From: Coriobacterium glomerans PW2
Lineage (GTDB): Bacteria > Actinomycetota > Coriobacteriia > Coriobacteriales > Coriobacteriaceae
DNA: 64,000 nucleotides
Direction: 5' to 3'
NCBI RefSeq assembly: GCF_000195315.1
Contig: NC_015389.1
Coordinates: 1,674,001 to 1,738,000, forward strand
The notes under the pieces: model-generated
Database searches by the model: none
What the model saw: only the letters and a program-made list of their open reading frames with translations
Told to the model about the DNA's origin: nothing
In this document: in pieces, positions 4,903-57,590 of the stretch
Layout of the letters: each line of letters opens with the position of its first letter
How positions within the stretch are numbered: position 1 is the first letter of the stretch
Program-made: the position numbers and the translations under genes

Positions 4903-7751
<2,849 letters not shown>

Positions 7752-11197: not shown

Positions 11198-12718
<1,521 letters not shown>

Positions 12719-46157: not shown

Positions 46158-46246
46158 ACCGGGCGCCATGGCGGCGGAGCCGCACGCGAGCAGGAGACGA
46201 GACGCCCGCCGGCGCCACCGGCTCGCGCGCGACGACCCGGCGGCAC

Positions 46247-47203
46247 CTAGCGACGCGACGCCTGGAGAGCCACGTAGGCGGCACCGAAGATACCGGCATC
46301 GTTACCCAGCGATGCTATCTCGATCGGTGTATCGGCTGAGCAGATCAGAGCATAGCTTCGATAGCACTCGACGAGTCGCTCCAAGAAGAGATCCGAGGAG
46401 TTGGACGTCCCCCCGCCCAAAACGAACGCCTCCGGGTCGATGACGCAGGCGACGAGCGCGAGAGCACGCCCCAGATAGTCGCACATGGTCTCGATCGCGC
46501 TCGCGGCGGCGGCGTCGTCATCGCGAGCCGCCTCGAAGACGGCGCGGGAATCGCTCGGCCCCGCCAGCGGGACGGGCTCGACGCCCGCTGATCGGCACGC
46601 CGCGAGATAGCTGCGGACGATACCGGTGGCAGAGGCGTATTGCTCCAGGCACCCATGGCCCCCGCAGCCGCACGGACGCGTCTCTTCGGGATTCAGACAC
46701 ATATGGCCGATCTCACCAGCTGCTCCGGCGACCCCGGACACAACACGGCCGGCGTGGACGACTCCGCCTCCGACACCGGTTCCGATCGTAACGAACACGA
46801 AGCTGTCGGTGCCCCGCGCGCTGCCGACCCAAAGCTCGCCCATCGCGGCTGCGTTGGCGTCATTTTCGAATGTCACGGCCGCAGCTGGGCAGCTCTCGCG
46901 AAGCGCATCTCTCAGACCGTCGAGATCGAGTTTGATGTTCGCGGCGACCTTGATGCGACCATCCGAGGGAACCGGGGCGGGGACCGCCAGACCGATACCT
47001 CGCACGTCTTCAGGAGCCGCAGCGGCTTGAGCAAGCAGACGATCGATGCCCCCGGTGACGGCGGCGTATCCGACCGCATCGGTCAGCGGCGGCGTGGGCA
47101 CGACCTCGCGCGCGATCAGCTCCCCCTGCGCGGTGAGCAGACCCTCCTTGACCGTCGTGCCGCCCACGTCCAAGCCGATATAGAACCCTGCGGTCCTCGC
47201 CAT
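46247..47203 (-). CDS. ROK-family sugar kinase (glucokinase-like)
   Basis: A 318-residue kinase. N-terminal ATP-binding GLDVGGTTVKEGLL, catalytic aspartate in FENDANAAAMGE, and the zinc-binding ROK signature GEIGHM plus CGCGGHGCLEQYAS are all present. It probably phosphorylates free glucose released by the 6-phospho-beta-glycosidase in the same operon. ATG 47203 has AGGGGAG upstream; the longer frame to 47329 is not supported. It lies 58 bp after EIIA as the last gene of the operon. Confidence 0.91.
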   Translation of the reverse strand: MARTAGFYIGLDVGGTTVKEGLLTAQGELIAREVVPTPPLTDAVGYAAVTGGIDRLLAQAAAAPEDVRGIGLAVPAPVPSDGRIKVAANIKLDLDGLRDALRESCPAAAVTFENDANAAAMGELWVGSARGTDSFVFVTIGTGVGGGVVHAGRVVSGVAGAAGEIGHMCLNPEETRPCGCGGHGCLEQYASATGIVRSYLAACRSAGVEPVPLAGPSDSRAVFEAARDDDAAAASAIETMCDYLGRALALVACVIDPEAFVLGGGTSNSSDLFLERLVECYRSYALICSADTPIEIASLGNDAGIFGAAYVALQASRR

Positions 47204-47261
47204 GTTCGCTCTCCCCTCACGGCGACGCTCGTCGGTCGCCCCGTCACGATATGATACCCGT

Positions 47262-47627
47262 CTAACGCGCGCTTTCATTCCCCGAAAGCCCGCTCTTCGC
47301 GCGCAAGGCCATGAGTTCGCGATAGACATCGATGAAATTCACGGTCAGAATCTTGACGATCTCGGTTCCCGCCATCTGGTCCTCGGCGTGCAAAAGAATC
47401 AGAGGCGCCTCTCCATGTCGAGCGCCGGCGGCATCGGCCTGCAGAAGCTTCATATGAACTTCATGACCGCTGTTGTAGTTCTCATCTCCCTGTTTGACGA
47501 GGGCCTCCGCGCGATCGAGATCTCCCGCCTTGGCGGCGGCGATCGCCTCGACAAAGGAGGATTTCGCAGAACCGACGTAGGAGATGATCTCGAAGCAGGT
47601 GAGCTCGAGCTCGTTCACGTCCTCCAT
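47262..47627 (-). CDS. PTS lactose/cellobiose-family EIIA (second system)
   Basis: A 121-residue helical EIIA. The phosphorylated histidine is in LILLHAEDQMAGTEI, preceded by the EIISYVGSAKSSFVEAIAAA helix typical of the family. ATG 47627 follows an AGGTGAG site that overlaps the end of EIIB. It serves the EIIB and EIIC of this operon and differs clearly from the EIIA at 8635-8985. Confidence 0.93.
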   Translation of the reverse strand: MEDVNELELTCFEIISYVGSAKSSFVEAIAAAKAGDLDRAEALVKQGDENYNSGHEVHMKLLQADAAGARHGEAPLILLHAEDQMAGTEIVKILTVNFIDVYRELMALRAKSGLSGNESAR

Positions 47628-47636
47628 GGAGCTCAC

Positions 47637-47942
47637 CTATCCGATCTTCGCTTGGACATCGTCCAGAATCTTCGCCGCATTCATGCGTCCGTATTCGATC
47701 ATCGGGATGACCTCGACGGGGATGTCGCGACCCTCGACGGCGCGCTCGAAGTCGGCTTTGGTGTAGCCGATCTGGGGCCCCAGAAGAATGATGGCCGCTT
47801 CATCCACATGGTCCATCGCCTCGTTGAGCGGGCGCGCCTCGATATCGACATCGAGATCGCGCGAGGCGGCCTCCTTCTGCATCTTCTGAACGAGCAGACT
47901 CGTTGACATGCCCGCATTGCAGCACAGTAGAATCTTCTTCAT
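47637..47942 (-). CDS. PTS lactose/cellobiose-family EIIB (second system)
   Basis: A 101-residue EIIB. The phosphorylated cysteine is one of the two in ILLCCNAGMSTSLLV, the second by alignment with the family; AIILLGPQIGYTKADFE follows. ATG 47942 has TTGGAG upstream. It is encoded between EIIC and EIIA. Confidence 0.94.
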   Translation of the reverse strand: MKKILLCCNAGMSTSLLVQKMQKEAASRDLDVDIEARPLNEAMDHVDEAAIILLGPQIGYTKADFERAVEGRDIPVEVIPMIEYGRMNAAKILDDVQAKIG

Positions 47943-47965
47943 GATCCGCTCCAATCAGTCGGGAA

Positions 47966-48010
47966 AACCCACGCGGCCGGCGCGCCGCAACGTCGCGCGC
48001 ACGCGGCCGC
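47966..48010 (-). terminator. Large GC hairpin between EIIC and EIIB genes
   Basis: GCGGCCG (47973-47979) pairs with CGGCCGC (48004-48010), extended inside by GCGCGC and a small bulge, for about 13 bp. On the minus strand it is followed by GGGTTTTCCC. It may be a partial terminator or RNA-stability element that lowers expression of the downstream EIIB, EIIA and ROK genes relative to EIIC. Confidence 0.45.
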
Positions 48011-48027
48011 AGATGTTATCTGTCATG

Positions 48028-49401
48028 CTAGCCTTGCTCAGCTTGCTCCGCAAGCTCGGCCTGCTTCTGGAGACTCTTTTCGCTTGCCTTCATGAACGGC
48101 AGGTAGATAACCGTATAGAGGGCCAAAAGCAGCACCTGCAGCACCGAAGCGCGCAGATCGCCTCCGGTGGCGAGCGCGCCGGAGAACACGATCGGACACG
48201 TCCAGGGGACCTGGATCACGCAAGGACTGATGAGACCGATGACCGTGGCGAAATAGGAGATGACGATGCCGAGCGCGGTGTTCAGCACGAACGGGATCAT
48301 GAGCGGGATGTTGAACACGATCGGATAGCCGTAGATGACGGGCTCGTTGATGTTGAACAGTCCGGGCAGGACCGCCATCTTGGCGACCTCTTTGCTGGGC
48401 CGATACCGACCCATGATGAACGTCGCGATAAGGAGCGCGAGCGTGCAACCCGACCCTCCCATGAGCGCGAACACGTTGATGATATCCATGTTCATGAAGT
48501 TCGCCATCGGGATGGCCTTGCCGGCGTTGTACAGCGCGGTGTTGTTCAGAAGCACGATCGTCAGGATCGGCTCGACGAGCACGCCGTTGATCGTTGTCTG
48601 ATGGATTCCGAGCGTGAACAGAAACGTGCCGATCGAGTAGATGATCACCAGACCCCAGACGTTGGTCGTGAGCGCACGCAGCGGTGTCTGGATGAACTCG
48701 TTGATGATAGCCGTCAGATCGGTATGGGCCGGTATGGCGAACAGGATCATGGCCACCAGACCGAAGGCACCCAAGGACAGAATCATCGGAATGAGCACGT
48801 CGAAGGACTTGCCGACCGCCGGCGGCACGCCCTCGGGCATCTTGATGCGCAGCCTGTCGACACCGGATATCTTGATGAACACCGTCGTTGCGAGCAGACC
48901 GACGATGATGGCGGAGAAGAGCCCCGCTGTGCCGGTATAGCCGGTGGTGAAGGCGCCCGACACGGGCGTTGTTATGCTCTTGCCCTCCTCGAACAGCTGC
49001 GAAGCCGGAGCGACCGCTGCGGCAACGGTCTGCGGCATGAGCACGGCGAGCGCCGACACGGCGATGACGACACAGGCGATGGGGTTGTCGAAGCGCTTGT
49101 TCTGCGCCAAACAGTAGCCGATCATGCCGCACAACAGGATCGCCGAGATGTTGAGCGTGCCGTTCGAGAGGGCACCGCCCCAGTACTGAGCCCAACCGAG
49201 CACATCGGCGCTCGGCATCAGACCGCTCGGGCCCCAGATCCATGTGAATACGACGTTGTTGAACAGCGCCGCGACACCTGCGAGGATGAACAGCGGCATG
49301 ATGGTGGCGAAGCCGTCACGCAGCGATCGCAGATGAACCTGATTTCCGATCCGCGCGGACACGTCCGCGAATCTGTCGAGATAGCCAGTGGCGTCTGCCA
49401 T
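48028..49401 (-). CDS. PTS lactose/cellobiose-family EIIC (second system)
   Basis: A 457-residue permease. It has the signature FNINEPVIYGYPIVFNIPL near residue 345, LGIHQTTINGVLVEPI in the middle, and the N-terminal VHLRSLRDGFATIMPLFILA. ATG 49401 is chosen (GGAG at 8 nt); a GTG at 49410 is possible. It lies 37 bp after the GH1 gene. The phosphorylated glycoside is split by that enzyme; substrate probably a beta-glucoside or beta-galactoside. Confidence 0.93.
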   Translation of the reverse strand: MADATGYLDRFADVSARIGNQVHLRSLRDGFATIMPLFILAGVAALFNNVVFTWIWGPSGLMPSADVLGWAQYWGGALSNGTLNISAILLCGMIGYCLAQNKRFDNPIACVVIAVSALAVLMPQTVAAAVAPASQLFEEGKSITTPVSGAFTTGYTGTAGLFSAIIVGLLATTVFIKISGVDRLRIKMPEGVPPAVGKSFDVLIPMILSLGAFGLVAMILFAIPAHTDLTAIINEFIQTPLRALTTNVWGLVIIYSIGTFLFTLGIHQTTINGVLVEPILTIVLLNNTALYNAGKAIPMANFMNMDIINVFALMGGSGCTLALLIATFIMGRYRPSKEVAKMAVLPGLFNINEPVIYGYPIVFNIPLMIPFVLNTALGIVISYFATVIGLISPCVIQVPWTCPIVFSGALATGGDLRASVLQVLLLALYTVIYLPFMKASEKSLQKQAELAEQAEQG

Positions 49402-49438
49402 TGCCCTCACTCCAATCGACTCGAGTTGACAACGATTC

Positions 49439-50839
49439 CTAGCGGACGATATGCGTGGCGACCACCTCTTTCAGCCAATCTGCCGAGCGCTTGGCCCGGC
49501 GTGCGTAGCCCTGCGTGAGATCCACCTCGATAAATCCATAGCGGTTCTTGAAGGCGTTCGCCCAAGACCAGTTGTCGATCAGCGCCCAGTAGTGGTAACC
49601 GCGGCAGGCCGCGCCCTCATCGATGGCACGGGCGATCCATGCGAGATGGTCGCGCACGAACTCCACGCGATAGGAATCCTCGATGCGACCGTCCCCACCG
49701 CGCTCGCGACCCTCCCCCTCGATGCCGATGCCGTTCTCGGAGATGAAGAACTCGAGACCGGGATAGTCCCGCTTGCATTTCATGCCGAAGTCATAGATGC
49801 CCTTCGGATAGATCTCCCAGCCGCGCGAGGTGTTCATGCGCGCCTCAGGCCAGACATAGGCATCCGCGAACCGGGGGTTTCCATATGAGTCCGTCGGCGC
49901 GTCGGGTGCCTGCACGCGCGAGGGCTGGTAGTAGTTGCAGCCGAGCCAATCGACTGGTCCCAACTGAAGAATCTGCGCATCGCCGGGACGGTGCGGGAGC
50001 CGTTGCCCGCGTTGCTCGAGCGTCTCGATGACATCTGCGGGCAGCGTGCCATCGCGCACGATGTCGAGCCACCACCTGTTGTTCAACCCGTCGTTCATCC
50101 GAACGGCCTCGAGATCTGCCTCAGATGGATCATCCTTCGTGTAGGACGGGCTGAAGCAGTTGATGAGGCCGATGCGGGCGTCGTCGCGCATCTCGCCTTT
50201 CGCCTGAGCCTGACGAAAGCGCTCGGTCGCCAGGCAGTGCGCGATCGAGATGTTGTAGCGCACCGTCAGCGACCGGCTGAAATCATGGAGCTGAGGATAC
50301 CAGACGCCGGTCATATAGCGCTGCTCGGGCTCGACGATGGGCTCGTTGAACGTGAACCATGTGCGAATCTCATCACCGAACTCGCGAAATGCGATCTGCG
50401 CATATCTCGCATAGGCTTCGACGACCTCGCGACTCTCCCAACCGCCGCGACGGAACAGATATGTCGGCATATCGAAATGGTAGAGGTTCACGAAGACCTC
50501 GAGTCCGCGATCGGCGGCCGCGGCGAAGAGTCGGTGGTACCATGCCGCGCCCTGCGGATTCAGCTCGCCGTTGGCATCCAGCAGGCGGCTCCATTGAATG
50601 GATGTGCGAAACGAGGTGAGGCCGAGATCGGCCATGATGTCAAGATCTCCCCGGTAGCGCGCCATGAAATCATTTCCCACATATGAGCCCACGCGATTGT
50701 GAAACGCGTCTATGGACTCATTTGACCAGGTGTCCCACATGTTCTCGAGCTTGCCGCCGATACGCCAGGCCCCTTCCGTCTGCGGACCCGACATCGCCGC
50801 GCCGAAGAAGAAGTCCTCTGGTAGCGTATAGTGCCTCAT
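49439..50839 (-). CDS. 6-phospho-beta-glycosidase, GH1 family (third copy)
   Basis: A 466-residue GH1 enzyme. It has FFFGAAMSGPQTEGAW, acid/base glutamate in WFTFNEPIVEPE (about 163) and nucleophile in FISENGIGIEGEG (about 365). The phosphate-binding loop reads DNWSWANAFKNRYGFIEVD: the serine that marks phospho-specific enzymes is present, but the usual lysine two residues before the tyrosine is asparagine, with a lysine one position earlier. It is diverged from the other two GH1 proteins. ATG 50839 has AAAGGGG upstream. First gene of the operon, divergent from a GntR regulator. Confidence 0.9.
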   Translation of the reverse strand: MRHYTLPEDFFFGAAMSGPQTEGAWRIGGKLENMWDTWSNESIDAFHNRVGSYVGNDFMARYRGDLDIMADLGLTSFRTSIQWSRLLDANGELNPQGAAWYHRLFAAAADRGLEVFVNLYHFDMPTYLFRRGGWESREVVEAYARYAQIAFREFGDEIRTWFTFNEPIVEPEQRYMTGVWYPQLHDFSRSLTVRYNISIAHCLATERFRQAQAKGEMRDDARIGLINCFSPSYTKDDPSEADLEAVRMNDGLNNRWWLDIVRDGTLPADVIETLEQRGQRLPHRPGDAQILQLGPVDWLGCNYYQPSRVQAPDAPTDSYGNPRFADAYVWPEARMNTSRGWEIYPKGIYDFGMKCKRDYPGLEFFISENGIGIEGEGRERGGDGRIEDSYRVEFVRDHLAWIARAIDEGAACRGYHYWALIDNWSWANAFKNRYGFIEVDLTQGYARRAKRSADWLKEVVATHIVR

Positions 50840-50924
50840 GCATGCCCCTTTCCGGTGCCACTCTGATCGAGCGACGATCGAGTTGGCTTGGTTCGAATCG
50901 ATCCGCATTTCGCATCGTTGTTAA

Positions 50925-50956
50925 ATTATAGCGCTATACTTTTTTATTCATAGCAC
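50925..50956. promoter_or_regulatory. GntR operator overlapping divergent -10 elements
   Basis: TATAGCGCTATA (50927-50938) is a perfect 12-bp palindrome in an AT-rich region. On the minus strand it overlaps a perfect TATAAT (50925-50930), the -10 of the GH1-PTS operon. CATAGCAC at 50949-50956 repeats a half-site. Binding of the GntR regulator here would block the minus-strand operon. Confidence 0.6.
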
Positions 50957-51079
50957 TTTTATTCTATATCATCACTGTTTTTGAATAGACTATTCCATCT
51001 GCGAAGATATTGATGATCGACAAGATTATACTTGTCTCTGGCACCGATAAGATGCGATCGAGGATCGGGGAGGACGGCC

Positions 51080-51802
51080 ATGCTCAAATACGAGGCGATC
51101 GCGCGCGACATCCAAAGCAGTATCGAGGACGGCTCCCTCAGACCCAATGAGCGGCTCCCGACCGTGGTGGAGCTGTGCGAGATCTACGCGGTGAGCAAGA
51201 TCACGGTGAAGCGCGCCATGGATTGGCTGACCGAAGCCGGACTGGTCACGACGCGACGCGGTTCGGGCAGCTACGTGAAGAACAGCACGGGCTTGGTTGA
51301 CGATCCGCTCTCGGTCGGCGTCAACGACCGCGCTCAGGGCTTCACGGCTGAGCACGCCGACCCCGCCGAGAAGGTGTCCTCGATGGTATACGCATTCGAT
51401 ATCGTGATCCCTTCACCCGAGATCGCTCGCCACCTGGCTATCGCGAATGACGACTTCACCTACTACCACTGCCGTACGCGACTGGTGAACAACGTTCCGA
51501 TCACTATCGAGTACACGCATATGCCGCTGGACCTCATCCCCGGCCTGAAACGCAGGCATGTCTGCGCATCGGTCTATCGCTATCTCCAACAGGGCCTGGG
51601 ACTCAAGATCGCGAGCTTCCACCGAGCGATCCGTGCCGTGCCGGCAGACCAGATCGAGGCCGAGCGGCTCGGGATCGCATGCAATGAGCCGCTGCTCGAG
51701 TTCGAGCAGGTGGGATATCTGGACAGCGGAGTCCCCTTCGAGTACTCGATATCGCGCAACGTCGGCAAGCGATACACGCTGCACAACATCACGCTGGCCT
51801 GA
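51080..51802 (+). CDS. GntR-family regulator (HutC subfamily, UTRA domain)
   Basis: A 240-residue regulator. The N-terminal winged helix is clear: YEAIARDIQSSIEDG, LPTVVELCEIYAVSKITVKR and TTRRGSGSYVK. The C-terminal part is a UTRA ligand-binding domain (YYHCRTRLVNNVPITIEYTH, IPADQIEAERL-like VPADQIEAERLGI, and PFEYSISRNVG). ATG 51080 has GGGGAGG upstream. Divergent from the GH1-PTS operon, so it likely represses that operon until a phosphorylated glycoside binds. Confidence 0.92.
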   Translation: MLKYEAIARDIQSSIEDGSLRPNERLPTVVELCEIYAVSKITVKRAMDWLTEAGLVTTRRGSGSYVKNSTGLVDDPLSVGVNDRAQGFTAEHADPAEKVSSMVYAFDIVIPSPEIARHLAIANDDFTYYHCRTRLVNNVPITIEYTHMPLDLIPGLKRRHVCASVYRYLQQGLGLKIASFHRAIRAVPADQIEAERLGIACNEPLLEFEQVGYLDSGVPFEYSISRNVGKRYTLHNITLA

Positions 51803-51840
51803 GATCCGCTCAGATGTGCCCGGATATGGCACGACGTGCG

Positions 51841-52935
51841 TCATCTGTGATGTTGCGACCTCGATGGGCGCCGCTGCTCCACTGTCGCCCCGGCGATCGA
51901 GATCGCGCAGGCCGCCACGCCGAGCAGCAGGCACACGAGTCCCGACAACGCGAGCGCTCTATACGAGATAACGCCATAGAGCGCATCGCGCATGACCGCG
52001 GTTATGTCGAGCAGCGGGACCGGCCAGAAACGGACGGCGGCACCCACCTTGGCGGTGGACAAAAAGATCGAAGGGACCATCGCCAGCGTCGTGATGATAC
52101 CGGTATAGCTCTGCGCCTCGCGAACGGTGCGCGAGATCATGCCTGCCGCGACGAACACGAATGAGAACAGCGCGGAAGCGATCACACTCGTCTGCGCGAC
52201 CACGACGAGCGTCTCGCCGGTGATGATATGGGAGTCTGGCATGCGAATCGCGATGTAGGCAAGGGTGCCGCCCAAGCCGAGCGCCATCGACGCGCATGCT
52301 CCGAGCAGAACGGCGACCATTTTGCCGGCAACCATCTCAAAACGCGAGATACCCGTCGAGACCAGCGGCTCGAAGGTGCCCGCCTCCCGTTCGCGGACCG
52401 TGGCGGCGATCGCGAGCGAGCCAGCCGACATGCTGCACACGACCATGAGGCCAGCCGGGATGAGGGTGCAGGCCAAAAGATCGCCGACACCATCCTTTGA
52501 CACATCGGTGAGCGAGACCCTGCCTTTCCGGGCGCCGAGCGACTCCTCGAGCATCTGCCTGAATGCGGAGGCGGCATCCAGGGATGAGGATGTGGAACTC
52601 GAGTAGGAGATCGCGTAGCCACCTGCCTCCGGCTGCTCCACATAGGCATCGATCTCGCCTTTCCTGAGCATCTCCTCAGCGGAGTCCCGCCCGGTGACAA
52701 GGACGGCGCTCACCTGATCGACGTGACCGAGCGACTCGACGAGCTGCTCGGTCGCCGCGCCGACGGTCTTCGGCCCTCCGGCCGCGTGCCGGCTCGTCAT
52801 CGCCCATGAACTGAACATGAGAAGCCCGGGAACCAAAACAAGCGAGACCACAAGGGTGTTTATGACTGTCCGCCTGCTCGCGCAGAAGCATCGCAGTTCC
52901 TTGCGCGCGATAGCGACGATAACCCGCAGCCTCAT
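51841..52935 (-). CDS. ABC-2 type permease (NatB-like)
   Basis: A 364-residue permease. N-terminal helix (INTLVVSLVLVPGLLMFSSW), a long extracytoplasmic loop (about 50-165), then five C-terminal helices; EREAGTFEPLVSTGISR just inside the membrane is the ABC-2 hallmark. It pairs with the ATPase encoded upstream, overlapping it by 4 bp. NatAB-type systems export sodium or small molecules, but the substrate here is unknown. There is an unusual SSSTSSSLDAASA stretch in the loop. Confidence 0.87.
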   Translation of the reverse strand: MRLRVIVAIARKELRCFCASRRTVINTLVVSLVLVPGLLMFSSWAMTSRHAAGGPKTVGAATEQLVESLGHVDQVSAVLVTGRDSAEEMLRKGEIDAYVEQPEAGGYAISYSSSTSSSLDAASAFRQMLEESLGARKGRVSLTDVSKDGVGDLLACTLIPAGLMVVCSMSAGSLAIAATVREREAGTFEPLVSTGISRFEMVAGKMVAVLLGACASMALGLGGTLAYIAIRMPDSHIITGETLVVVAQTSVIASALFSFVFVAAGMISRTVREAQSYTGIITTLAMVPSIFLSTAKVGAAVRFWPVPLLDITAVMRDALYGVISYRALALSGLVCLLLGVAACAISIAGATVEQRRPSRSQHHR

Positions 52936-53648
52936 CGCCTCGTCACCAGACTCCTCACCGTCGCGAACGCCTCAGACAGCGACTTGCCCCGCGTGAGCGT
53001 CCGCAGATCCTCGCACGTGACGACCCGGCCCTGCTTGAGAACGACCACCTGATCGCAAAGATCCAGGATCTCACCGGCGGAGTGGCTCGAGATGATCACG
53101 ATCCTGCCCCATTTCACGCTTTCGCGAAGAAATTCATTCATCGTGCTCGACGCGACGAAATCGAGACCGGACTCCGGCTCGTCGAGCATGATGATGTCCG
53201 GATCGTGAATGAGCGCCCGCACGATAGCGGTCTTCTGACGCATGCCGCAGGAAAGCTCCGAGACCCGACGGTCCAGAAAACCGTCCATATCGAAGCGCTC
53301 GGAGAGCATGCGAATCCTCTGTCTGGCGACGCGCAGGTCGAGCGCGCGCAACCTGGCAAAATACAGAATGTTCTCGAATGCCGTGAGCTCTTCGTAGAGT
53401 CCGGCTTCACCTGCGAGCAAAAGGGTCGTCTGGATTCGGCGTTGCCGCTCAGCCGTCGTTGCCTCGTTGATTCGGACCGTGCCGGAATCGGATCTGAGCG
53501 TTCCGGCGAGAACTCTCAGCATCGTGGACTTGCCAGCTCCGTTCTCACCGAGCAGGCCGGTGATGTGGCCGCGTCCGATGTTGAATGTCACATCATCGAG
53601 CGCTGTACATTTCCGATAGTGCTTTGACACCCCCTTGACCTCGATCAC
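52932..53648 (-). CDS. ABC transporter ATP-binding protein (NatA-like)
   Basis: A 238-residue ATPase with Walker A LLGENGAGKST, signature ELSCGMRQKTA (LSCGM rather than LSGGQ), Walker B IIMLDEPESGLD and the switch histidine in IISSHSAGEI. The start GTG 53648 has AAGGCGG upstream. Partner of the ABC-2 permease by a 4-bp overlap. Confidence 0.92.
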   Translation of the reverse strand: MIEVKGVSKHYRKCTALDDVTFNIGRGHITGLLGENGAGKSTMLRVLAGTLRSDSGTVRINEATTAERQRRIQTTLLLAGEAGLYEELTAFENILYFARLRALDLRVARQRIRMLSERFDMDGFLDRRVSELSCGMRQKTAIVRALIHDPDIIMLDEPESGLDFVASSTMNEFLRESVKWGRIVIISSHSAGEILDLCDQVVVLKQGRVVTCEDLRTLTRGKSLSEAFATVRSLVTRR

Positions 53649-53694
53649 TCGATCCGCCTTCCCGAGACGCGCCCCTACTCGAACTGCAGTGCAT

Positions 53695-53732
53695 TGGATA
53701 TCAGTATAGCTAGTTCAGTCTGCCTCCATAAA
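53695..53732 (-). promoter_or_regulatory. Promoter of the NatAB-like genes
   Basis: TTTATG (53727-53732), 18-bp spacer, TATACT (53703-53708) on the minus strand, about 55 bp before the ATPase start. The -10 lies in a 14-bp sequence also present at 45640-45653. Confidence 0.45.
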
Positions 53733-54115
53733 GGCGCGCACCTGCTCATGCGACCCCACCTCCGATTTCAAAGGGTCCGTCCGCATCGAGACGTCTGCCC
53801 GCGCGCAAGCGCGCGATCGCCGAGAGCTGACGGATGAGGAGGGTCTGCAGAGCCTTCATCTCAAGCGACACGCGAGCGCAAAAGCGCCTTCAGCCGGTCT
53901 GCTCCAGCCGGCTGGCGAGGATCCGATCGGTCTCATCGAGGACCATCTCGAGGGTCTCTTCGAAGAAGTCGTCATTGAGCAGCAGATAAGGTGGGTGCTC
54001 GGCGACGCCGCCGTTCGCGCGCACGACCTCGGCCATGACCGCGATCGTCGCCTCCACGCTCGCATGATCGATCGGATACTGCGGAAACGCCGCCGCCGCG
54101 TAAAGAGCCGGCGTC
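53727..54115. repeat. Direct repeat, left copy (389 bp)
   Basis: Near-identical to 57199-57590, same orientation. The half inside the gene (53890-54115) differs by about 3 substitutions and one 3-nt deletion; the half beyond the stop codon (53727-53889) is less similar, about 90-93 percent by eye. Homology stops sharply at GAGCCGGCGTC (54115). The pair flanks the ArsR-ABC block. Confidence 0.9.
53890..54115 (-). pseudogene. Truncated 3' copy of the phospholipase C-like gene
   Basis: The last about 75 codons of the gene at 57362-58117 are repeated here with the same stop codon (TPALYAAAA, then AVMAEVVRANGGVAEHPPYL). One alanine codon is missing and Lys near the end is Met. The first two thirds of the gene are absent; an open frame runs to 54129, but its first residues are unrelated and there is no ribosome-binding site. 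It is a remnant, not a working gene. Confidence 0.85.
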
Positions 54116-54123
54116 ATGCTTGC

Positions 54124-54156
54124 AGGCACCGGGCGACATGCCCGGTGCCTTTTTTT
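54124..54156 (+). terminator. Strong rho-independent terminator on the plus strand, without an upstream gene
   Basis: A perfect 11-bp stem AGGCACCGGGC / GCCCGGTGCCT with a 5-nt loop is followed by six more T. The T-run is on the plus strand only, but no plus-strand gene is seen for 2.3 kb upstream. It sits just inside the breakpoint of the left repeat copy, so it may have come with the inserted block or belong to an unrecognised transcript. Confidence 0.8.
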
Positions 54157-54195
54157 GCTGCGAAGCGCCCAGGACGCGACGCGCGCCGAGCGAGC

Positions 54196-55188
54196 TCACC
54201 TCCGCGACAGCAACGTTTCGAGCCATGCGCGATACCGCTCGATGCCGTTGGCGCTCAGCCGGTAGAACATCCTCGCGTCCTGCCTCGCGACCTCGACCAA
54301 GCCGGCGGAGACCAACATGTTCATATGGTAGGACGTGGTGGCTGGCGTGAGGCCGATTTTGCGGGCGAGTTCGACGCCGTAGAGTCGATTACCCTTCAAT
54401 ATATGCAGGATGGCGACCCTGTTCGCATCACTCAGGGCCTTGGAGACACGGACGGCTTCGATATCAGCGAGGCCATCCGTCCGACCGGTAAAGACGCGAT
54501 TGAGCAGAAGTCCGAGAACGCAGGTATCTCCGATGGCCATGACCAGCAGAGGGGCAGCGAGCGACGGTGTGATCCGTGCATGGGGGTAAAGCGACACCGC
54601 CTGGTCGACCATCGGAGAGAGCTTATCGTCCCGCAGCTGGTCCCCAAGCTGGCTGAGGACGGAGGCCATCTCGGGCTCGATCTTTCGACGCGCCTGGTTA
54701 AAGGCGGGGATATTGGCTGCGATCGCCCGTATGACCAGAGCGATTCTCGGTTTGGGCTGCTGCCACAGAACGGAGAGCTGCCAGCGCGCGCGATCGGAAA
54801 GACCGCTCGTCTCAAGCGCGGCGATGAAATCGGCACCGGTCCCCATGATCGCCGAGATCCCGCTGCGGACCTCGTTGATCACCTCTTCCTCGGGCAGAGC
54901 TTCGAAATCGCGCAGCCAAGCCGGATGGGAGACGAGCAGCGATACGAACAGCAATGCCGCCTGATCGCTCAGGTCCGCAATATAGGAGCTCCCGGCGTCT
55001 TTGACCATGCAGGCGGCAAAAGCTGAGAAATAGCGCTCGATCAGATGAAACTGCGCGGCATAGCAGGCGGCCCCGTCGATGCCGAGGGCATCGAGCTGCT
55101 CGATCGCTCTCTTTTTCTGCCTCTTCCCCCAGTCCGCATCAGCGAGCAGAAAGAACGTCTCGACAGCTGGGTCCAATTGTAGCTTCAT
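54196..55188 (-). CDS. ArsR-type HTH regulator with a large N-terminal domain
   Basis: A 330-residue protein. The C-terminal about 85 residues are an ArsR-like winged helix (VSKALSDANRVAILHILKG, then ELARKIGLTPATTSYHMNML and SAGLVEVARQDARMFYRL). The N-terminal about 245 residues are helical and unrecognised (AFNQARRKIEPEMASVLSQL, and PLLVMAIGDTCVLGLLLNRV), perhaps a ligand-sensing domain. ATG 55188 has AAGGTAGG upstream and follows the ABC exporter stop by 7 bp. It is likely co-transcribed with the exporter and controls it through the dyad at 56941-56990. Confidence 0.82.
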   Translation of the reverse strand: MKLQLDPAVETFFLLADADWGKRQKKRAIEQLDALGIDGAACYAAQFHLIERYFSAFAACMVKDAGSSYIADLSDQAALLFVSLLVSHPAWLRDFEALPEEEVINEVRSGISAIMGTGADFIAALETSGLSDRARWQLSVLWQQPKPRIALVIRAIAANIPAFNQARRKIEPEMASVLSQLGDQLRDDKLSPMVDQAVSLYPHARITPSLAAPLLVMAIGDTCVLGLLLNRVFTGRTDGLADIEAVRVSKALSDANRVAILHILKGNRLYGVELARKIGLTPATTSYHMNMLVSAGLVEVARQDARMFYRLSANGIERYRAWLETLLSRR

Positions 55189-55195
55189 GGCGGGC

Positions 55196-56914
55196 CTACC
55201 TTGCGTTGTCTCGCGTCGGGTTATCGTTGGATGCGCGCAGACTCTGAAATGAGGCGAAGCCGCCTTGTTTCGCGATGAGCGCATCGTAGGAGCCGATCTC
55301 CTCGATCCGACCGTGCTTCATAAAGAGTACCGTATCGTATCGGCGCAGCAGCTCGGGTCTGAGATCGTGGGTGATGGTTATCAGGGTCAGATCGTCGATC
55401 TTCAGCAGGGCGGACTCGATGTCGCAGGCGGTGCGGGCGTCCACCGCGTTCGTGCCCTCGTCGAGGATGAGCAGCGGCTTTTCGTCGATGATCGCCCGGG
55501 CGACCGCGATGCGCTGACGCTGACCCCCTGACAGGCGCGCACCGAGCTCACCGACCTGTGTGGAAAGCCCCTGCCCGATTCGGGCGATAAACCTGTCGAC
55601 ACCGCTGATGGTCAAGGCGCGCGCCCACCGCTCCCGTGAGTAGGATCGTCCGAGGGAGATGTTGTACTCGAGGGTTTCGTCGAACAGGTACGCATCCTGC
55701 TGTACGGTCGAAACCATCTCCAGCACTCGATCGACGTCGAGCTTGTGCAGCTCGCAGCCATCGATTCGAATCGCACCCGCGTAATCGCTGCGCTCGGCGG
55801 CGAGCAGCCGAACCAGCGTGGTCTTCCCGCACCCGCTCTCGCCGACGAGCACGTAGCTTTCCCCCTTTTTCAGCGTCGCGCTCAAACCCGATAGCACCGG
55901 CCGTTCTGCCGCGTAGCCAAAGCTGACGCTATCGAAGATGATCTCCTGCTCGAACCGCGGGACGCGGTTCCCGCTGAAGCCAGATGGCGCCGGACGTCCC
56001 AGGACTCTCAACCGGGAGAGGACCGGCGCGCCGGCGCATATCATCGGCAGACTTTGCATGATGATGGCAACGGGCTGCACGAATGCACCGGATAGCTGCA
56101 AGATGGCCAGCAACGTGCCGGCGAGCATCTCTCCGCGCAGCACGAGAACACCTGTCACCAGCATCGTAGCGATTTGGAGAACCGCGCCCATGACGCCGGC
56201 GAGACCCTCGCTGAGCGCCAGCAGCCGATCAGCGGCGAACTTTTTGCTCGCCACCGCATCGCTTCGGGTCGCGAGCTCGCAGCTCGCCCGTTCGATGAGA
56301 CGGCATGCGCGCAGAACGCCATAACCTGACAGACGATCCTTCACAATTGATGTGTAGCGTGCGCATTCCGTCGAATACGCCTCCTGCCGCTTTCCTATCA
56401 AGCCGCCCACACAGGAGGGCAGCAGGTACATCAAGACCAGGCCGCCCAGCATGATCGCGCCGATGAGCGCGCTGTAGAAGAACAGGGCCACGGCCGCCAT
56501 CAGGAAGATGAGCGCATATTGAATCGACTTCAGCAGCGGCACGACGATGTTCTCTTCGACGATTTTCATATCGTTGGTGAGCGCGGACAGGTAGTCCGCC
56601 GTCCCAAGGCAACCGAAATGCTCGTTGTCACGGGACAGTATGCCCTGTTGAACAGTTGTTCTAAGATTTCTTATCGCTGTGATGACGACCTGCTTCTCGA
56701 CGATCGCCGCGCAGATCGACACCGCAGCCATGATGACCAGATAACCCAACGCGACCCGCAGCATGACACCGAATCGCTCCGAATCCGCATCGATGACGGC
56801 GTTGAGGACGAGCTCCAGAATGGTTGCCGCAGCGACCGTGAGCGCCGCCACCGCGACCCCCATGAAGATATTGAGTGTGAAAAGCAGCTTGCACCGGCGG
56901 AAAAGCCCCAGCAT
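55196..56914 (-). CDS. ABC exporter, fused permease-ATPase
   Basis: A 572-residue half-transporter. Six-helix domain at the N-terminus (LLFTLNIFMGVAVAALTVAA) and ATPase with Walker A VGESGCGKTT, signature RLSGGQRQRI and Walker B LLILDEGTNAVD; histidine in TITHDLRPE. All catalytic residues are canonical, so it can work as a homodimer. ATG 56914 has GAGGAG upstream; GTG 56920 overlaps that site. Co-transcribed with the ArsR-type regulator. A drug- or peptide-export role is plausible but unproven. Confidence 0.9.
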   Translation of the reverse strand: MLGLFRRCKLLFTLNIFMGVAVAALTVAAATILELVLNAVIDADSERFGVMLRVALGYLVIMAAVSICAAIVEKQVVITAIRNLRTTVQQGILSRDNEHFGCLGTADYLSALTNDMKIVEENIVVPLLKSIQYALIFLMAAVALFFYSALIGAIMLGGLVLMYLLPSCVGGLIGKRQEAYSTECARYTSIVKDRLSGYGVLRACRLIERASCELATRSDAVASKKFAADRLLALSEGLAGVMGAVLQIATMLVTGVLVLRGEMLAGTLLAILQLSGAFVQPVAIIMQSLPMICAGAPVLSRLRVLGRPAPSGFSGNRVPRFEQEIIFDSVSFGYAAERPVLSGLSATLKKGESYVLVGESGCGKTTLVRLLAAERSDYAGAIRIDGCELHKLDVDRVLEMVSTVQQDAYLFDETLEYNISLGRSYSRERWARALTISGVDRFIARIGQGLSTQVGELGARLSGGQRQRIAVARAIIDEKPLLILDEGTNAVDARTACDIESALLKIDDLTLITITHDLRPELLRRYDTVLFMKHGRIEEIGSYDALIAKQGGFASFQSLRASNDNPTRDNAR

Positions 56915-56940
56915 GGTCACTCCTCGGTTTCGCAGGATCA

Positions 56941-56990
56941 GATATTAGATATTATTCTAATATAGATGTGTATTATATTCATCTAATATC
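56941..56990. promoter_or_regulatory. AT-rich operator with three TATTAGA half-sites before the ABC-ArsR operon
   Basis: GATATTAGAT (56941-56950) and ATCTAATATC (56981-56990) form a perfect 10-bp inverted repeat 30 bp apart. A third element, TCTAATA (56956-56962), makes a second dyad with TATTAGA (56943-56949). The block is the only AT-rich patch nearby, 27 bp before the exporter start. It is the best candidate for autoregulation by the ArsR-type protein. Confidence 0.6.
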
Positions 56991-57198
56991 TTCGAGTATC
57001 CCGTGAACGGCAAGCGCCGATGTCGCCCGATCGTCGACACGGCTGCCCTCGTCCGAAGACCGGTGTCACGCGCCGGGTGGATCACCGCAGAAGTCGCGCC
57101 TTGCGACGCCTGCGCGTGTGAAGCGCATGCTGGCACCTTGCGAATTTCGGCAACGTCCAGTTTAAGTTTCGATCCGCTGTCCTGTTGTAACTCGCTCC

Positions 57199-57590
57199 CA
57201 TAAGGGCGCGCACCTGCTCATGCGACCCCACCTCCGATTTCAACGTCTCCGTTTGCATCGAGACGTCTGTCCGCGCGCAAGCGCGCGATCGCCGAGAGCT
57301 GACCTGTGAGGAGGGTCTGCGGAGCCTTCATCTCGAGCGACACGCGAGCGCAAGAGCGCTTTCAGCCGGTCCGCTCCAGCCGGCTGGCGAGGATCCGATC
57401 GGTCTCATCGAGGACCTTCTCGAGGGTCTCTTCGAAGAAGTCGTCATTGAGCAGCAGATAAGGTGGGTGCTCGGCGACGCCGCCGTTCGCGCGCACGACC
57501 TCGGCCATGACCGCGATCGTCGCCTCCACGCTCGCATGATCGATCGGATACTGCGGAAACGCCGCAGCCGCCGCGTACAGAGCCGGCGTC
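57199..57590. repeat. Direct repeat, right copy (392 bp)
   Basis: Right copy of the repeat at 53727-54115, covering the last about 76 codons of the intact phospholipase C-like gene and 163 bp beyond its stop. Between the operator (56990) and this copy, 57000-57198 is GC-rich with no gene that I can support. A 37-codon frame inside both copies is discussed as rejected. Confidence 0.9.

Follow-up and report, generated by a model that had tools for sequence, protein, structure and literature searches.

How the end of one gene came to lie on both sides of an exporter operon is the question raised by this locus of Coriobacterium glomerans PW2. The window that we analyzed (a single stretch of 64,000 nucleotides, bases 1,674,001-1,738,000 of the contig) contains a phospholipase C-like (PLC-like) gene whose 3' end recurs beyond an adjoining ABC exporter and ArsR-family regulator, next to a second transporter gene pair related to NatAB. 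The positions of these features are collected in Table 1.

Table 1. Coordinates of the repeat, the flanking genes and the joint, in positions of the window.
Feature	Position	Strand	Description
Intact PLC-like gene, 261 aa	57362-58147	(-)	Third gene after pheS-pheT; the 3' end repeated in copy 2 comes from it
Repeat copy 1	57198-57590	(-)	End of the intact PLC-like gene (75 codons and stop) with ~164 bp of downstream sequence
ABC exporter half-transporter (predicted)	55196-56920	(-)	Membrane domain fused to ATPase; first cassette gene
ArsR-family regulator, 330 aa	54196-55188	(-)	Second cassette gene; long N-terminal part and C-terminal winged helix
Intrinsic-terminator-like hairpin, strong	54124-54150	(+)	12 pairs and T run; directed towards ArsR from just inside the joint
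Novel joint, PLC fragment / ArsR side of block	54115-54116		From the repeat alignment
Repeat copy 2	53726-54115	(-)	Stranded tail of the PLC-like gene, with the downstream flank found in copy 1
NatA-like ATPase	52932-53648	(-)	Far side of the PLC fragment from ABC-ArsR
NatB-like ABC-2 permease	51841-52935	(-)	Partner of the NatA-like ATPase
Variable zone, ~11 kb	46158-57197		Missing between PLC and the DUF-aminotransferase block in Collinsella vaginalis

The repeated gene end

Exact alignment of the two repeat copies placed them within 1 base of where a preliminary description of this DNA had put them, and confirmed its observation that homology is suddenly lost at GAGCCGGCGTC. The copies share one orientation at a spacing of 3472 bases, or 3475 past the gap, and their alignment spans 393 columns, 17 of them with substitutions, plus a single in-frame gap of 3 bp. 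The identity of 98–99% reported earlier holds for the coding part, in which the last 75 codons and the stop differ by 3 substitutions in 226 aligned bases (98.7%); over the full repeat identity is lower, at ~95%. The non-coding part carries 14 substitutions in 164 bases (91.5%). This difference between coding and non-coding divergence is unlikely to be accidental (Fisher p 0.0007), and the repeat includes a run of 147 bases free of differences (p 0.003), while the non-coding substitutions are clustered. The gap removes one Ala codon from the PLC fragment, and since relatives match the intact copy in length at this position, the 3-bp deletion arose in the fragment. The repeat is far beyond chance because it was found at these two places only in a search of the whole genome (2,115,681 bp, one contig) and scored E = 4e-177 when the window was compared with itself.

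The gene that supplied the repeat has a conserved setting: the order pheS-pheT-PLC recurs in almost all of 53 relatives, among them Collinsella and Enorma, with a gap of a few kilobases between pheT and the PLC-like gene in some of them. Its name is a weak, putative assignment that leans on a match to Zn_dep_PLPC (PF00882) at E 0.008 and 16.6 bits, below the curated cut-off of 26.8 bits; a PF00882 match at E up to 1 was obtained for 7 of 9 PLC-like members. The fragment begins at about codon 186, lacking the conserved N-terminal two thirds, and its frame is still open. An ATG created at the 54115 joint, by chance or otherwise, precedes the fragment and yields a frame of ~75 aa, for which there is no evident ribosome site. 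No 3' duplicate of the PLC-like gene was seen in the relatives' loci compared.

The repeat was also inspected for content of its own. An Rfam search returned no family at a meaningful score, and a structured RNA was rejected on this basis. In the non-coding flank (57198-57361 and 53726-53889, (-) strand), a protein-like frame, M[QR]T[ED][TP]LKSEVGSHEQVRA[LF]M, is cut short in both copies where homology ends. As the start of a further gene, this frame found no such protein start in 66 other genomes of the family, using a query that carried a guessed extension modelled on a family resemblance.

The exporter-regulator pair and its joint

The presence of an ArsR-type regulator and an ABC exporter between the repeat copies, already noted in the preliminary description, was borne out by domain matches. 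HTH_5 and HTH_20 match the C-terminus of the ArsR-family protein, whose start is supported by a relative beginning MKLQL... at the same point. The half-exporter is followed immediately by the long ArsR gene, 7 bases beyond its end, and the two form a two-gene cassette. This cassette is foreign to the surrounding family: the ArsR gene is missing from the other 66 genomes of the family and present in 7 of 396 further genomes from the order (8 of 397 counting the present one), and in all seven it adjoins the same ABC exporter gene (55–64% identity). To the extent that the block is an acquired cassette, this agrees with the earlier suggestion. Among five of these loci that were read more widely, the neighbors of the pair differ and the sites are unrelated to PLC; none of the loci read has a flanking PLC end. 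The pair (loci L098-L102) is conserved yet sporadic in other families of the order.

Several sources for the block were considered and rejected. A source within the genome was set aside as no second copy of the block was found elsewhere in it. A phage origin of the region was rejected for want of a near match in phages, and a plasmid origin because plasmid matches were at the level of the ABC-ATPase only. Insertion as an IS or transposon was also rejected: the block contains no transposase, and its ends, whose best inverted match is 10 bases, carry no terminal inverted repeats. In GC content and GC3 the block is not set apart.

Beyond the PLC fragment lies the NatAB-like pair, of which NatB was detected in 3 of 397 genomes of the order, the present genome included. 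Since both are rare in the order, the two cassettes flanking the PLC fragment both appear to be sporadic acquisitions.

The joint at 54115 is the only one without long homology, and it is the only illegitimate joint that the arrangement needs. Against the 393-column homology on one side, the sharing at this end amounts to 7 bases: GGCACCG is common to both sides within 25 bases of the joint, not at the joint itself (p about 0.04, composition shuffles). The terminator-like hairpin just inside the joint may once have terminated a donor + strand gene, the rest of which was lost there.

A probable one-sided exchange and its alternatives

We consider it probable, with some reservation, that a one-sided homologous exchange left this repeat as its scar; the site concerned is variable and follows a conserved gene. 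As to the donor, the sequence of events and the linear or circular state of the DNA, we infer the following course. Two strains or close species would have had pheS-pheT-PLC and ~160 bp beyond it in common, one followed by ABC-ArsR and the other by NatAB. Incoming DNA would have found its homologous partner in the resident PLC gene and flank, while at the other end an illegitimate join at 54115 would have connected the end of the ABC-ArsR cassette to PLC at about codon 186. By an alternative route, the DNA would first have been circularized at the 54115 joint and then integrated by a single crossover. The product would be an intact, possibly hybrid PLC gene followed by the ABC-ArsR operon, the stranded PLC tail and the previous neighbor, NatAB. 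The anatomy thus fits a single-crossover or one-sided integration that duplicates a homologous gene end, one of two possibilities raised in the preliminary description.

The pairing of a single illegitimate joint with a long homologous tract, and the rarity in the order of the cassettes on both sides, count for this reading. Several further observations bear on it. First, the open frame of the fragment and a gap divisible by three count for it. Second, the PLC gene and its upstream neighbors are conserved and intact in relatives that have neither cassette, which also counts for an exchange. Third, the uneven differences (3/226 in coding against 14/164 in non-coding sequence, with the 147-base clean run) favor two alleles that diverged under coding selection, or partial gene conversion, over free decay; this argument is indirect, as few changes are involved and those in the non-coding part are clustered. 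Fourth, the fragment carries the derived state at the 3-bp gap, as decay would give, and this counts against an exchange. Lastly, the genome contains ComEC and has no Ku gene, a combination compatible with uptake of linear DNA, with the proviso that ComEC was present in 10 of 14 control genomes and on its own is widespread. Circularization in the host by Ku-dependent end joining is unlikely given the absence of Ku.

An old duplication inside one lineage could also have left copies 5% apart, and we regard this as unlikely while taking it seriously. A tandem duplication would have extended from about PLC codon 186 to beyond ArsR, after which the second ABC-ArsR copy was deleted and the tail diverged. 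No donor is required, a deletion ending at 53726 would account for the sharp stop of homology at 53726/57198, and the 3-bp deletion derived in the fragment is what such a history predicts. However, two independent events are needed and nothing else in the genome points to a second cassette copy. Moreover, a tail decaying freely to 8.5% non-coding divergence should have gathered ~9.6 coding changes, compared with the 3 seen (P of three or fewer, 0.014), an expectation that gives the coding part of the fragment at least half of the non-coding divergence.

The same one-sided recombination can be run in the opposite direction, with NatAB and the PLC fragment as the newcomer and ABC-ArsR as the resident. 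This version is formally symmetrical with the course set out above and draws on NatB being rarer in the order than ArsR, but with PLC as the homologous anchor one would expect the new DNA to lie beside the intact chimera, and this favors, weakly, ABC-ArsR as the newcomer; we judge the reversed direction decidedly improbable.

The preliminary description had also allowed for site-directed integration. On this reading a small island would have used an att site within the PLC 3' end and restored the gene end, and its integrase would have been lost later or have acted in trans. Prophage e14 integrates in the 3' end of icd and restores the gene end, and the present anatomy of intact hybrid gene, island and 3' remnant matches islands of this type, with homology that spans the gene end and beyond. 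The likeness does not extend to the machinery: there is no integrase in the block, the only two tyrosine recombinases detected genome-wide score best as XerC/XerD, and the genome yielded no large serine recombinase. The relatives of the cassette lack a flanking PLC end, and the window has no tRNA, by which tRNA-linked integration was rejected as well. Site-directed integration was therefore not borne out, and we hold it to be very doubtful. An assembly artefact, whether by collapse or duplication, is barely credible, as the genome is a single contig of 2,115,681 bases, 20 of the 393 columns distinguish the copies and the ABC-ArsR genes between them are a natural pair.

The one-sided exchange that we favor has published precedents, and the arrangement is an ordinary scar of horizontal transfer of a known kind, not a new kind of mobile element. 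Illegitimate joining at one end combined with homology at the other has been described (PMC3240628), and this homology-facilitated illegitimate recombination (HFIR) is known from Streptococcus, Acinetobacter, Pseudomonas and E. coli (PMC3240628 and references there). As in HFIR, there is one homologous end and one illegitimate joint, and foreign genes are trapped beside the anchor; HFIR in the laboratory is expected to delete host DNA, whereas here, as read from sequence alone, a gene end is duplicated. In E. coli lacZ, a single crossover of circularized DNA duplicates 109–950 bp of the target gene (PMC3240628), giving a direct partial gene duplication around an insert on a scale that includes the 393 columns found here. 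Those repeats were made in an experiment, in contrast to copies that are 5% diverged in a genome without Ku. Stranded 3' ends are also reported from Vibrio cholerae T6SS effector-immunity arrays and rhs loci (PMC5361080), where a new module arriving at a conserved upstream anchor likewise displaces the old 3' end and the downstream gene; in our case a conserved PLC-like gene acts as the anchor, and exporters take the place of the effector-immunity pairs.

The effect of this finding on general knowledge is small. The locus preserves, in readable form, the gain of an exporter operon by a gut actinobacterium that has no phage-type integrases, with a conserved gene serving as anchor for the incoming genes and the tail of that gene staying behind. 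A truncated gene copy beside a cassette need not imply a mobile element.

Gene turnover downstream of PLC

Gene content after PLC varies among relatives. Judged from their sequences, pyruvate kinase and a P-type ATPase often follow; in the present genome pyruvate kinase sits elsewhere, at 370 kb. Collinsella vaginalis (locus L086) has an intact PLC with neither NatAB nor ABC-ArsR. There, PLC is followed by a short stretch of genes and then by a DUF-aminotransferase block homologous to 42.2–46.2 kb here, and because these homologues follow PLC in that genome, the segment from 46.2 to 57.2 kb is extra in ours. Within it lie the PLC fragment and both cassettes, NatAB and ABC-ArsR, as well as a PTS/GH1/GntR set, and the ~11 kb downstream of PLC are a zone of gene turnover. 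A bolder proposal, which we consider distinctly unlikely, is that the site after PLC serves in Coriobacterium for recombination-driven exchange of exporter cassettes, which would be stacked there with one PLC tail left per event; such stacking would be comparable to that of the immunity-gene arrays of Vibrio.

GH1-like genes are also found in other parts of the window. In addition to the one at 49439-50908, two paralogues at 4903-6402 and 11198-12643 on the (-) strand lie 6.3 kb apart and share stretches of DNA that are ~68–72% identical.
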